Shown here piece by piece: positions 2,438 to 50,514 of a DNA stretch of 64,000 nucleotides. The DNA is from Pontibacter pudoricolor (lineage in GTDB: Bacteria; Bacteroidota; Bacteroidia; Cytophagales; Hymenobacteraceae), in the NCBI RefSeq assembly GCF_010092985.1, contig NZ_CP048106.1, positions 744,001 to 808,000 of the forward strand. The letters are read 5' to 3'. The notes under the pieces are model-generated. The model was given only the letters and a program-made list of their open reading frames with translations. It was not told the DNA's origin and made no database searches. The translations under genes and the position numbers were made by a program. Numbering within the stretch: position 1 is the first letter of the stretch; each line of letters opens with the position of its first letter.

Positions 2438-3823
2438 ATGGAAAATAACCTGGGACGCATACTGGTAATCGACGATAACGAGGACGTGCTTTTCTCTGCT
2501 AAAATGCTGCTGCGTAAACATGCCAAAGAAGTAGTGATGGAGAAGAACCCGAAGAAGATACCATTTCTGCTTACCAACTATGAGTTCGATATAATACTGC
2601 TGGATATGAACTATAGCCAGGACATTACCAGCGGACAGGAAGGTTTTTACTGGCTACAGGAAATCCTGAAATATGATCCGTCGGCGGTGGTAGTGATGAT
2701 AACTGCGTTTGGCGATGTGGAGATGGCAGTGCGGGCAGTAAAAGAAGGCGCTACCGACTTTGTGCTCAAACCCTGGCAAAACGAAAAGCTGATCGCAACA
2801 CTTTCGGCGGCATCCAAGCTTAGAAATTCCTATAAAGAAGTGTCTCAGCTTAAAGAAGTAAATCGCACACTTTCAGCTGAGCTCAACTCAACTTCTGATA
2901 TCATTACCGGTACCAGCCAGCCCATGCAGCAACTCTTTTCGATTATTGATAAAGTTGCTAAAACGGATGCTGATATTTTACTGCTGGGCGAGAACGGAAC
3001 AGGTAAAGAGGTGATTGCCCGAACAATACACCAACGCTCTTCCCGCGCCGATAAAGTGTTTGTTACCGTAGATATGGGCGCTGTTACAGAATCTTTGTTT
3101 GAAAGTGAATTATTCGGGCATAAGAAAGGTGCGTTTACCGATGCGAAAGAGGATAGAGTAGGTAGGATAGAGGCGGCCAACGGCGGGACGCTATTTCTGG
3201 ATGAGATCGGGAATTTATCGCTGGCCATGCAGGCAAAATTACTGACCGTGCTGCAGCGCCGCGAAGTTATCAGAGTTGGAACCAACAAGCCAATACCCGT
3301 AAACGTACGGCTGATCTGCGCCACCAATATGCCCCTGAAGGAGATGGTTGCCCGTAACGAATTCCGCCAGGATCTGCTTTACCGCATTAATACCGTAGAG
3401 CTTAACCTGCCACCTTTACGCAACCGGCTAGATGATATTCCGGTGTTTGCGGAGCATTTTTTGGGCGTCTATGCTCGCAAGTACAAGCAGCCATTTAAGC
3501 GACTTTCGGATAGCGGTCTGGCCAGACTGAGCCGCTATAGTTGGCCGGGCAATGTGCGCGAGTTACAGCATGTACTGGAGCGTGCATCCATTATGAGCGA
3601 TAACCGGGAACTGCAAGCTGAAGATTTTTTCTTTTTAGCTGAATCAGAAACCTCTGCAACTATAGCTTTACCCGCAAATGATGCCCGTCGTCTGGACGAC
3701 CTGGAACGGGAAGCCGTGCAGCGGGCACTGGAAAAACATGACGGCAACGTATCGAAAGCTGCAAAAGAATTAGGCCTGTCGCGCGGGGCATTGTACCGAA
3801 GACTGGAGAAGTATGAGCTTTAA
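2438..3823 (+). CDS. Sigma-54-dependent response regulator, NtrC/AtoC family
   Basis: A 461-residue cytoplasmic activator of sigma-54 RNA polymerase. An N-terminal receiver domain (residues about 6-125) has the acidic pair IDDNED and the phosphorylated Asp in IILLDMN. The central AAA+ domain (about 155-385) has Walker A GENGTGKE, the sigma-54 contact loop as GAFTDA rather than GAFTGA, Walker B GGTLFLDEIG, and RQDLLYRINTVEL. The C-terminus carries WPGNVRELQ and a Fis-type helix-turn-helix (GNVSKAAKELGLSRGALYRR). The next gene, its likely kinase, overlaps it by 11 bases, so the two are translationally coupled. The divergent permease gene is the likely target. The GAFTDA change also occurs in other Bacteroidota regulators, as far as I recall. 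Confidence 0.95.
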   Translation: MENNLGRILVIDDNEDVLFSAKMLLRKHAKEVVMEKNPKKIPFLLTNYEFDIILLDMNYSQDITSGQEGFYWLQEILKYDPSAVVVMITAFGDVEMAVRAVKEGATDFVLKPWQNEKLIATLSAASKLRNSYKEVSQLKEVNRTLSAELNSTSDIITGTSQPMQQLFSIIDKVAKTDADILLLGENGTGKEVIARTIHQRSSRADKVFVTVDMGAVTESLFESELFGHKKGAFTDAKEDRVGRIEAANGGTLFLDEIGNLSLAMQAKLLTVLQRREVIRVGTNKPIPVNVRLICATNMPLKEMVARNEFRQDLLYRINTVELNLPPLRNRLDDIPVFAEHFLGVYARKYKQPFKRLSDSGLARLSRYSWPGNVRELQHVLERASIMSDNRELQAEDFFFLAESETSATIALPANDARRLDDLEREAVQRALEKHDGNVSKAAKELGLSRGALYRRLEKYEL

Positions 3824-47847: not shown

Positions 47848-48017
47848 GTGCTTTACTTCCGGCTCAGGTTAAAAATTTGGTCCGGACTTATAGTTATAAC
47901 GTTTCCAGAGCAGATCAAATATAAGTTAAATTGATTTAAGCGTGCGGAGGATCGAGAGAAGAAACTTAAACAGGTAGAGGTAAGCTATCGTTTGTCTTAG
48001 GGTAACATAACAAAAAA

Positions 48018-48046
48018 GGCCGGAACAATGTCCCGGCCCCTGTTTT
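48018..48046 (-). terminator. Terminator after the hydrophilic 76-residue gene
   Basis: GGCCGG (48018-48023) and CCGGCC (48033-48038) form the stem with extra inner pairs; the minus strand ends in TTTTTTG. TTTTTATAGTT lies on the other side. Confidence 0.75.
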
Positions 48047-48058
48047 TATAGTTCATTC

Positions 48059-48289
48059 TTAATGACTGCCGGCGCTGCTGCCAATATCATTGCCACCGTC
48101 CTGCACATCAGCACTGCCACGGCTACCGCTTTTACGCGATGGCGCACCGCCAACTTCGCCTTTCATAATACTATCGTTGTCCACATCTTCCTTCTCACCT
48201 GTCGGGTTTATATTAGGGACTTTGCCGGCCTTATTTACCGGCTTATTCAGGTTCTCGTTTTTTAGTCTGTCTTTATTTTTATCGTTCAT
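48059..48289 (-). CDS. Small hydrophilic disordered protein
   Basis: 76 residues, no Cys, no Trp, almost no hydrophobic residue. It is Asp/Gly/Ser/Asn/Lys-rich (MNDKNKDRLKNENLNKPVNK, MKGEVGGAPSRKSGSRGSAD) with a Gly/Ser end. The composition resembles stress-type hydrophilins. It is the third-strand neighbour of three larger disordered proteins and has its own terminator, which supports that it is expressed. Start at 48289 has no Shine-Dalgarno. No domain found. Confidence 0.6.
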   Translation of the reverse strand: MNDKNKDRLKNENLNKPVNKAGKVPNINPTGEKEDVDNDSIMKGEVGGAPSRKSGSRGSADVQDGGNDIGSSAGSH

Positions 48290-48334
48290 AGTCTTCGTTG
48301 TTTTCAGTTATAGTTGGGGCAATAGTGCCTGTTA

Positions 48335-48970
48335 TTAATAGCGTTCATAGTTGTCGCGGTCGTTCCGGTTGTTATGCTGCCGGCGCTCGTTACCAGCCTC
48401 AGGGTGGCGGCTAGTATAGTTACCGTGATAGCTGCGTCTGTGTCCGGTTAGGGGGTTGTAATAGCGGTGCTCCTCCCAGTCAGCATTCCATTCGCCATCG
48501 TAACCAACACTCAGCGACCCAGCCATGTTGCCATAGTTTTCGTCGCGGGTGCGGGGCCTGTAACGATCAGGGTCATAGTTTCCCTCAAAGTTTCCGAACA
48601 CGCTTCTGGAGCGGTACATGCTTTCAGGTTGGTTGGTTTCTTCATCCTGCCAGTAGCCCTGCTCATACCGGTTGCCATAGTTGTAAGGTACTCGTCCCTG
48701 GTTACGGTCGCGGCGTGGTGCACGGGTATTGTAATTGTTTAAATTCTGCTCCCTGTTCTCAAGCTCAGGTCTTCGCTCGTAGGTCCGCGGACTTTCGTGC
48801 CGTTCTTCGCGCTCTCTAAAACCGTTGTATGTGGTCTCGTTGTGATGAGGGCTGTCATTATCGAAGCGGTAAGAACCCCTAAACACATCCTGATCTATCG
48901 GGCGCTCATCGCCGCGGTAATGATTTCTGTAGTCGGTGTATCCTGTATTATACCAATCGTTTCCTTCCAT
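48335..48970 (-). CDS. Arg/Tyr/Asn-rich disordered protein, no Lys or Cys
   Basis: 211 residues with no Lys and no Cys at all. It is built from Arg, Tyr, Asn, Asp, Glu, Gly, for example DYRNHYRGDERP, RDRNQGRVPYNYGNRYEQGY and REREERHESPRTYERRPELE. There is one ordered-looking spot, SLSVGYDGEWNADWEEHRYY then NPLTGHRRSYHGNY. No signal peptide or membrane helix. Arginine-tyrosine sticker proteins of this sort condense with RNA in eukaryotes; that is an analogy. It faces the two related genes at 49113 and 49873 across a 142-base divergent region. Confidence 0.7.
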   Translation of the reverse strand: MEGNDWYNTGYTDYRNHYRGDERPIDQDVFRGSYRFDNDSPHHNETTYNGFREREERHESPRTYERRPELENREQNLNNYNTRAPRRDRNQGRVPYNYGNRYEQGYWQDEETNQPESMYRSRSVFGNFEGNYDPDRYRPRTRDENYGNMAGSLSVGYDGEWNADWEEHRYYNPLTGHRRSYHGNYTSRHPEAGNERRQHNNRNDRDNYERY

Positions 48971-49112
48971 AGCATTTAATTCATTAGTGATACTATTTAT
49001 AACGGCTGAAAACGCCTATGGTTAAGGTATTTATAGAACTATAGCTGTACGGCTAATTAATCTAAACACGCTGACCTGCCGTAAAACTAAGCGAACAAAT
49101 TAACCAACAACT

Positions 49113-49802
49113 ATGAGAAACAGACGAGAGAATGACCAGCGCGATTTCCAGAATGATGTAGAACCACGCTGGCTGCACGGCAACCACGGTAATAATTCAG
49201 ACAGAGGAAACTATAGAATTGATTCTCATTTTAACCGCGGAAGAGGGGAATACGACGAAGATTATCTCGACAATGCCTCTTTTAATTCCAGTGCCGAGCA
49301 GAATTATAACTATACGGAGGGCCTTTTTCAGCCAGGAGGGGCGCAGTATGCCGGCGAAGACTTTACAAACCATCGCCGCCGCAGAAGATCTGATAACTTG
49401 TATGGCATGAGCTACACCAAAGACGATGGCTATAATTCCGGCCGCCATTACGATCCGCGAGCCAGCTATAAAAATTCGGATTACAGCGACCTGCGCAGAA
49501 ACAGTGAGCCACGAGACCTGAGCCGGGAACAGGACGAGCGTTTCGGGCATGATGTAAGCCGTGGCAGCAGAGGAGATTACCTGGGCCATGCCTCTATGGG
49601 GGATTACGAATCATACAGAAGAAATGAACGCTTTGACCCTCGTTATGATAATGATTACAGTGGCGGTTTTGCCGGCCGTAATTACTCCGAAGGAGAATCG
49701 CACTATGGCGAGGGCAGCTACTACAGCAACTTAGACCGCTGGAGAGGCGAACAGGCCCGGAACCAACAACAAAGCGGTAAAAGAACCAGGTCTAAGCATT
49801 AA
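49113..49802 (+). CDS. Arg/Tyr/Asn-rich disordered protein
   Basis: 229 residues, no Cys and only four Lys, three of them in the last 60 residues. It is Arg/Tyr/Asp/Gly/Ser/Asn-rich (MRNRRENDQRDFQNDVEPRW, NHGNNSDRGNYRIDSHFNRG) with repeated short units such as RxxYxxxYD, DYSDLRRN and YESYRRNERFDPRY. No hydrophobic core or signal peptide. The style, not the sequence, matches the proteins at 48335 and 49873. It sits 71 bases before the second plus-strand gene, probably the same operon. Function unknown. Confidence 0.7.
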   Translation: MRNRRENDQRDFQNDVEPRWLHGNHGNNSDRGNYRIDSHFNRGRGEYDEDYLDNASFNSSAEQNYNYTEGLFQPGGAQYAGEDFTNHRRRRRSDNLYGMSYTKDDGYNSGRHYDPRASYKNSDYSDLRRNSEPRDLSREQDERFGHDVSRGSRGDYLGHASMGDYESYRRNERFDPRYDNDYSGGFAGRNYSEGESHYGEGSYYSNLDRWRGEQARNQQQSGKRTRSKH

Positions 49803-49872
49803 TAATTTGATTATCTAAATGATGGCATAAAAGCAGAAAGTGTGTTTGTGTCACCTACTAAACTATAAAGTT

Positions 49873-50421
49873 ATGAGACGAAACAACGATATGGATTACG
49901 GAAATTTTGAAAACAACTATAACCGGGAACAGGAAAATGACCGATACGGGCGGAACTATAGCCCGCAGCGGGGCAACTTCCACGAGCAAGGCGAGCAATA
50001 CCGTTCTCCTCAAAACCGGGATAATGGGAGGGGTGGGTATTACCAGCCAACCCGCGAGGATTATTACAACCAGATGTATGACATTGCCAATTACTCCGGT
50101 ATGCCACGCGATGAAGAGTACGGTTTGCCTCACGGCCCTGAAGATGAGCTGATGAACATGAAACCGATGCCGTTACAGGAAGGGCCTTATAACCGGCACC
50201 GGCATTACAACTATAGCTTAGGCTATAACCCGAACTTCGATAACCCCGAAGAAGGTGACATGTACCGCAACTTCGACAGCCGGGGCAACCATGGCTATCG
50301 CCATGATGCTTCCTATGGCAACGAAGATGAATTCAGGGATTTTGGCAACGACCACTATGGTAGCCAGGACTATACAAACCGCCCTCCAAATGATCGGTAC
50401 ACTGATTACGACCGGTATTAA
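49873..50421 (+). CDS. Arg/Tyr/Asn-rich disordered protein
   Basis: 182 residues from the ATG at 49873 (MRRNNDMDYGNFENNYNREQ); the frame starts earlier at 49840 but that adds Cys-rich residues foreign to the rest. One Lys and no Cys. Motifs: GRNYSPQRGNFHEQGEQYRS, DNGRGGYYQPTREDYYNQMY, and a small conserved-looking part YNRHRHYNYSLGYNPNFDNP, comparable with YDGEWNADWEEHRYYNPLTG of the minus-strand protein. Terminator 68 bases downstream. Confidence 0.7.
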   Translation: MRRNNDMDYGNFENNYNREQENDRYGRNYSPQRGNFHEQGEQYRSPQNRDNGRGGYYQPTREDYYNQMYDIANYSGMPRDEEYGLPHGPEDELMNMKPMPLQEGPYNRHRHYNYSLGYNPNFDNPEEGDMYRNFDSRGNHGYRHDASYGNEDEFRDFGNDHYGSQDYTNRPPNDRYTDYDRY

Positions 50422-50488
50422 CTTAACAAATCGCAACCTTAACGTATAAGTAAAGGTACATTAGTATCAAATTTCCATCTGAGAAAAG

Positions 50489-50514
50489 GCCGCGGCATTT
50501 GCTGCGGCTTTTTT
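50489..50514 (+). terminator. Terminator of the disordered-protein operon
   Basis: GCCGCGGC and GCTGCGGC pair over 8 bases around ATTT, followed by T6. Confidence 0.85.

Follow-up and report, generated by a model that had tools for sequence, protein, structure and literature searches.

The four-gene cassette considered here lies in a stretch of 64,000 nucleotides from Pontibacter pudoricolor (contig NZ_CP048106.1, positions 744,001 to 808,000; hereafter, the window), which belongs to a chromosome assembled as one contig of 4.34 Mb. The genes are called D, A, B and C, in the order in which they lie. An earlier reading of the letters alone, referred to below as the original prediction, had described three Arg/Tyr-rich proteins poor in Lys and Cys and a fourth hydrophilic one, encoded on both sides of one divergent region. 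All four open reading frames (ORFs) were found where that reading had placed them, and the description stands (Table 1). The proteins A, B and C contain 0, 4 and 1 Lys, respectively (C counted from its ATG), and no Cys, and D is the fourth, hydrophilic protein, though with 9 Lys and no Tyr.

The composition of A, B and C is exceptional within the window. Arginine accounts for 11-16% of their residues and tyrosine for 9-13%, with Ile, Leu, Val, Met, Phe and Cys together making up 8-10%. The grand average of hydropathy (GRAVY) is -2.1 for A, -1.9 for B, -2.0 for C and -1.3 for D, and the glycine content is 8.1%, 10.9%, 9.9% and 14.5%, respectively. Among the 51 non-overlapping ORFs of at least 150 residues in the window, a comparison in which C was taken from an upstream GTG (193 residues), only A, B and C fall below a GRAVY of -1.8. 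The remaining 48 range from -0.55 to +0.93, with 25.7-45.6% of the six hydrophobic residues listed above. An N-terminal hydrophobic segment is not visible in the sequences.

Conservation of the Four Genes

The cassette is kept throughout the genus, while the genes flanking it vary. In a 59-genome sample, including 36 other genomes of the genus and 22 from outside it, protein searches with A and C found matches in all 36 of the former and in none of the latter. In stretches of 12.5-13.5 kb around each of the 36 loci, the genes follow one another as in the window and lie on the same strands (D<A< >B>C). The original prediction had named disrupted frames in close relatives as evidence against it; none was found, and the frames are full length in all 36 relatives (206-255 residues for A, 211-250 for B, 171-202 for C and 74-89 for D). 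The BLAST searches for this 36-locus survey and for the comparison with P. populi were run with composition correction off, which inflates the scores of such proteins; the identification of A and C relies on the protein searches, and that of B and D on profile searches.

The ratio of nonsynonymous to synonymous substitution rates (dN/dS; Nei-Gojobori method), calculated against P. populi, is 0.10 for A, 0.12 for B, 0.06 for C and 0.25 for D. Mean column identity over 37 rows (the window and its 36 relatives) is 36%, 59%, 52% and 53%, respectively, and C contains a strongly conserved block with the consensus NPNYDNPEEGDxYRDFDSRGNHGYRHD. Judged by these sequence comparisons, A-D are real genes, and the cassette is under purifying selection. 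The best explanation of the arrangement is that the four genes constitute one functional unit, divergently transcribed.

Arginine, Tyrosine and Predicted Disorder

A second line of evidence is the way in which arginine is retained. In those alignment columns of A, B and C where arginine is the majority residue, 479 cells hold another residue, and only 15 of these are lysine. The same count in four neighbouring proteins gave 57 lysines among 164 arginine replacements; both figures are descriptive rather than tests, because the species are related and the cells are not independent. These controls came from the window and from whichever relatives possess the protein in question, with 16-17 rows each, and were restricted to matches at E <=1e-20 over >80% of the length. 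Over 37 rows, A, B and C together hold 3432 Arg and 116 Lys, and D holds 113 Arg and 328 Lys. Since Lys-containing D lies beside the Lys-poor A, B and C, a genome-wide avoidance of lysine is no explanation for the pattern.

Arg accounts for 15-16% and Lys for about 1% even in those columns of A, B and C that are not conserved by position. Tyrosine, on the other hand, makes up 10-14% of the conserved columns vs. 3-7% of the others. This is compatible with a requirement for the chemistry of arginine together with tyrosine, as reported for the assembly of FUS (PMC7865556), and the preference for arginine over lysine agrees with sticker-type (cation-pi) chemistry.

AlphaFold2 modelling covered A and B, and the mean predicted local distance difference test score (pLDDT) was 45.1 and 47.5, respectively, from alignments of 37 rows, a depth at which a low score is by itself weak evidence of disorder. 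From these models, A and B are probably disordered. The net charge of the window proteins is -6 for A, -3 for B and -13 for C, and the medians among the 36 relatives are -3, -7 and -8. B carries a net negative charge in every one of these relatives (-12 to -1), as does C (-13 to -5), and A ranges from -10 to +2. In windows of 20 residues, the charge of the window proteins stays between -0.2 and +0.2.

Table 1. Genes, conserved segments and putative regulatory features of the cassette (positions within the window).
Feature	Position	Strand	Description
Gene D	48059..48289	-	76 residues; small, hydrophilic, Gly-rich, Lys-containing
C-terminus of D			conserved: GSRGSADVQDGG..GSSAGSH
Gene A	48335..48970	-	211 residues; Arg/Tyr/Asn-rich, without Lys and Cys, predicted disordered
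C-terminal 40-residue signature of A	48428..48547	-	consensus ENYGNMAGSLSxGYDG...YDPLSG
Gene B	49113..49802	+	229 residues; Arg/Tyr/Asp/Gly-rich, predicted disordered, best conserved of the set
Gene C	49873..50421	+	182 residues from ATG 49873; Tyr/Asn/Arg-rich, net acidic, hydrophilic
Candidate ECF-like promoter of A-D	49001..49024	-	TAACC-N15-CGTT
Candidate ECF-like promoter of B-C	49058..49083	+	TAATC-N17-CGTA (TAACC in most relatives)
B-C intergenic stretch	49803..49872	+	hairpin-forming in many relatives
Hairpin and T-run after C	50483..50514	+	likely terminator, folded
Hairpin and T-run after D	48004..48053	-	likely terminator, folded

Sequence Families and Internal Homology

Neither Pfam nor NCBIfam contains a model that matches A-D above its cut-off, and the same is true of five proteins of relatives. 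Below the cut-off, the only matches are Glucodextran_C for C (E 0.14) and PRK12717 for B (E 0.12). The Pfam/NCBIfam models of curated bacterial stress-protein families, of which KGG and CsbD are examples, gave nothing above the cut-off for A-D, the late embryogenesis abundant (LEA) families of Pfam gave nothing at E up to 1, and these libraries reveal no recognised RNA-binding domain in any of the four. No match at E 0.1 was found in PHROGs, nor among the PDB sequences compared with the profiles of A and B; a search of plasmids with C and one of phages with B were likewise without a match. Titles and abstract openings in the open-access literature searched hold no description of these proteins. 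The libraries consulted contain no match for the sequence families of A-D, which accords with the impression of a new family in the original prediction; their kind, namely hydrophilic disordered protectants and sticker proteins, is already known.

A short piece present in two of the proteins had been suggested to be homologous, a suggestion that finds no profile support between A and C (hhalign probability 0.3%). Homology among A, B and C in general was rejected, as the A-C, A-B and B-C profile comparisons were all negative (hhalign probability <1%), and the shared piece is therefore best seen as a compositional coincidence. A contrary sign comes from BLAST without composition correction, in which C aligned to the P. 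populi B gene with 24.7% identity over 162 residues; this alignment is read as shared composition.

Distribution and Relatives Outside the Genus

A search of 200 Hymenobacteraceae genomes found all four proteins in 50 of 50 genomes of the genus. C occurs in 50 of the 200 and in none outside the genus at E 0.01; in named genomes, 51 pattern matches yielded 42 confirmed relatives of C at 41 loci, 40 of Pontibacter and one of Botryobacter ruber. B occurs in 51 of the 200, and its sole extra match (G143, E 0.5) was set aside as chance. In the wider order, B was found in 11 of 331 genomes, ten of the genus and G430, whose match (E 0.005, in a frame of 50 residues) was set aside likewise. At E <=0.01, and leaving the genus aside, 14 Hymenobacteraceae genomes have relatives of A, that of G083 being weak (E 0.0097, frame of 46 residues), and 18 have weaker relatives of D, of which 6 were read. 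The A matches in G203 and G204 (E 0.17 and 0.73) and all D matches above E 0.01 were regarded as chance. B and C were not found, among the 200 genomes, in the genera that carry relatives of A. In these searches, B and C were thus found in this genus alone, and other genera of the Hymenobacteraceae carry relatives of A and D.

The C-terminal signature of A has 11 invariant columns in 21 rows. Within the order, 27 of 390 genomes and 3 of 129 genera carry it, all Hymenobacteraceae. In a sample of the phylum, 2 of 335 genomes matched, namely the source genome itself and G688; the latter match, outside the order (E 8e-4), is to a 416-residue protein, which by eye looks secreted or outer-membrane, and was set aside as chance.

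Ten of the 14 sister-genus loci with relatives of A were read, and nine (L178-L180, L182-L187) have intact frames of 328-356 residues. These proteins resemble A in being Lys-poor (eight of them hold 356 Arg, 8 Lys and no Cys) and in their C-terminal block, ENYGNMAGSLS...YDPMSG, which is aligned by profile (hhalign, A vs. eight sister-genus proteins, E 4.7e-14 over 39 columns). They differ from A in being longer and in having extra conserved blocks. An N-terminal RGAYR block common to A and these relatives was seen by eye only, with DEDQYRGAYR exact in five of the nine and degenerate in the others. The possibility that B or C corresponds to parts of these longer proteins was rejected.

Several further observations concern the same loci. 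The A relative of G070 (L181, about 2999-3818) appears to be split between two frames, possibly by a frameshift or a sequencing error. Directly upstream of the A relative, L184 (1714-1977) and L186 (1496-1759) encode a hydrophilic-looking protein of 88 residues. By eye, the proteins of L179-L187 seem to contain an internal repeat, with the NYGNM-like block occurring twice (NYGNMGSYGGAQGWGSS and ENYGNMAGSLS). The GGAQ block of B resembles these NYGNM-like blocks, with no profile support.

The relatives of A and D lie hundreds of kb apart in G069, G073 and G078, the three genomes with both that were read. From their separation in the sister genera, the cassette therefore looks to have been assembled in the Pontibacter lineage.

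Putative Promoters, Terminators and RNA Folds

The gap between A and B, 142 bp long in the window, contains two conserved bipartite boxes facing outward. On the B side, all but one of the 37 genomes (36 of 37) have the pattern TAA[CT]C-N16/17-CGTA (shuffle mean 0.17, maximum 2), and on the A side, TAA(A)C[CT]-N14/15-CGTT is present in 35 of 37 (mean 0.26, maximum 2). The control consisted of 200 rounds of dinucleotide shuffles, and the contrast is optimistic because the patterns were picked after the alignment had been viewed and because the species are related. The CGT box lies 28-58 nt from the start codon. Both sides combine an AAC-type -35 element with a CGT-type -10 element at fixed spacing, as in promoters of the extracytoplasmic function (ECF) type, and the house-keeping TAnnTTTG box is present in 3 of 37 gaps on the plus strand and in 2 of 37 on the minus strand. 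In a transcription start site map of Flavobacterium psychrophilum, a CGT core in the -10 region was attributed to sigma factors of the ECF type (PMC9723704). A similar box is scarce in the B-C gap (2 of 37) and in the D-A gap (0 of 37), and two operons are therefore consistent with the distribution of the boxes.

Judged over the 37 genomes jointly, the intergenic RNA between B and C is more stably folded than mononucleotide shuffles of it, with z < -2 in 26; in several genomes, the fold is a GC-rich hairpin. A possible function of the hairpin is that of an attenuator setting the B:C ratio, or of a processing site.

Apart from the cassette, the window is unusually rich in two short sequences. 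AACTATAGTT occurs in 14 copies (for example, at 2286, 20939, 44777, 51165, 51238 and 51414) vs. 0.1 expected from base composition. CTATAG occurs 112 times vs. 18.5 expected, or 98.8 in a Markov model that already holds its inflated pentamers, and 68 of the 112 copies lie outside ORFs of at least 100 residues. Raised counts are also seen in L068 (28 vs. 3.5) and in L117 of P. populi (20 in 12.5 kb); in most other Pontibacter stretches, the counts are little raised or not at all.

Proposed Role and Alternative Explanations

The favoured explanation, which is put forward tentatively and with somewhat less than even confidence, is that the cassette encodes stress-controlled, intrinsically disordered cytoplasmic protectants, with A, B and C self-associating through contacts of Arg with Tyr and with acidic residues. 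From the gene-level facts that the sequence provides, this explanation extrapolates to induction, assembly and protection. An alternative (ECF-type) sigma factor would activate both arms jointly under environmental stress, for example drying, osmotic or nutrient stress. A, B and C would then accumulate and self-associate via many Arg-Tyr (cation-pi) and Arg-Asp/Glu contacts, with Gly, Asn and Ser as spacers, and the resulting reversible condensate or gel would keep cytoplasmic proteins soluble and recoverable. Docking, mutual or to a client, could take place at the 40-residue signature in A and at the conserved blocks in B and C, and D may be a small, soluble, hydrophilin-like companion. A more demanding version, which is appreciably more doubtful, holds that three dedicated, co-regulated and mutually unrelated Arg/Tyr sticker-and-spacer proteins jointly form, on stress and without dependence on RNA, a condensate or gel in the cytoplasm, lysine being excluded from the proteins so that the cation-pi stickers work. 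As for stress responses in the genus, an RNA sequencing study of P. korlensis under gamma radiation reports changes in 394 of 893 unclassified genes (PMC4460873).

Several results weigh against the protectant explanation. Strict versions of the promoter patterns show no genome-wide excess over reversed controls, either in the source genome (9 vs. 7) or in five genomes together (54 vs. 55). The two boxes of the window itself fall outside these strict patterns, although the B-side box was recovered in the four other genomes; being unenriched and missing the window boxes, the strict patterns therefore tie no stress regulon to the cassette. The neighbouring genes vary among the 36 stretches: the FAD oxidoreductase adjoining the window cassette was found in 16 and the SRPBCC gene in 15, with ArsR-type, TetR-type, glyoxalase, AI-2E transporter and response-regulator genes in others. 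The 10 representative neighbour proteins scanned and assigned to families provide no consistent stress context. In the SRPBCC control, 5 of 33 arginine replacements are lysine, closer to the cassette than the other controls, and the descriptive nature of the Arg/Lys counts and the shallow alignments behind the pLDDT values reduce the weight of both. Finally, condensation might be hampered by the net negative charge of the proteins.

The best-surviving alternative, itself rather unlikely, is that A-D are non-condensing hydrophilins, acting in dehydration as soluble shields or water-replacement proteins with no separate phase. All four proteins have the high glycine content and very high hydrophilicity of that class, and DtpA/DtpB of Acinetobacter baumannii are reported to aid desiccation tolerance (PMC13232832). 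A shield, however, requires hydrophilicity and not arginine, and the scarcity of lysine, the enrichment of tyrosine in conserved columns and the 59% mean column identity of B favour more specific contacts.

An improbable alternative is a linear-motif scaffold, in which the disordered proteins dock enzymes or each other via their conserved blocks and composition is secondary. This would suit the strongly conserved block of C and the signature that A has in common with the 328-356-residue proteins of other genera, whose middles are different. Docking motifs alone are nevertheless insufficient to explain why the freely varying columns are also Arg-rich and Lys-poor.

Less probable again are the RNA-organising condensates of the original prediction, namely bacterial RNA granules to which A, B and C would give rise by binding RNA via Arg and Tyr. 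The preference for Arg over Lys speaks for this idea, as does an Arg/Tyr richness of the type reported to drive FUS-type assembly (PMC7865556). A, B and C, however, are net acidic in the window and in the medians of the relatives, and they contain neither a recognised RNA-binding domain nor a net positive region of the kind expected of FUS/RGG-type proteins. For these reasons of sequence and charge, RNA coacervation seems less likely than self- or client association. The notion that A-D are not genes, only chance open frames in low-complexity DNA, draws on antisense and overlapping ORFs in the same stretch and is refuted by the dN/dS values of 0.06-0.25 and the frames intact in 36 of 36 relatives.

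If the proteins of the favoured protectant cassette do assemble, they would make up a compact system in which the protective condensates of environmental bacteria could be studied, and stabilising proteins might be obtained from it. Should the sticker-gel version be true, the cassette would be a natural multi-component protective phase in bacteria. In our judgement, disordered bacterial proteins are rarely conserved enough for evolutionary study; here, four co-located genes are kept genus-wide, together with their frames, order and promoter-like boxes, and their Arg-vs.-Lys record allows sticker chemistry to be viewed through evolution in organisms other than eukaryotes.

Comparison with Known Systems

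The cassette boxes resemble the SM6 motif of F. psychrophilum in the CGT core of the -10 region; the SM6 genes are described as including type IX secretion genes and as being induced under low nutrients (PMC9723704).

Hydrophilins are recognised by a glycine content above about 6% and a hydrophilicity index above 1, the latter taken here as a GRAVY below -1. By these two measures, A-D all fall within the class, a likeness of composition only, as the class is compositional and not a homology family. It has been described as one of high glycine and high hydrophilicity (PMC4190154). The DtpA/DtpB proteins of A. baumannii, compared here by their description, are similar to the cassette in that their hydrophilin genes are clustered, and their cluster is reported to encode a catalase as well (PMC13232832).

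With the FUS family, A, B and C share dense Tyr and Arg in disordered chains (disorder predicted for A and B), in which Arg is seldom replaced by Lys. Tyr-Arg contacts are reported to drive the phase separation of FUS, other aromatic/cation pairs being less efficient (PMC7865556). Unlike the Pontibacter window proteins, which are net acidic and have no recognised RNA-binding domain, FUS-family proteins are eukaryotic and carry such a domain. By analogy, the nearest counterparts of the cassette would thus be the bacterial hydrophilins for role and the FUS-type proteins for chemistry.

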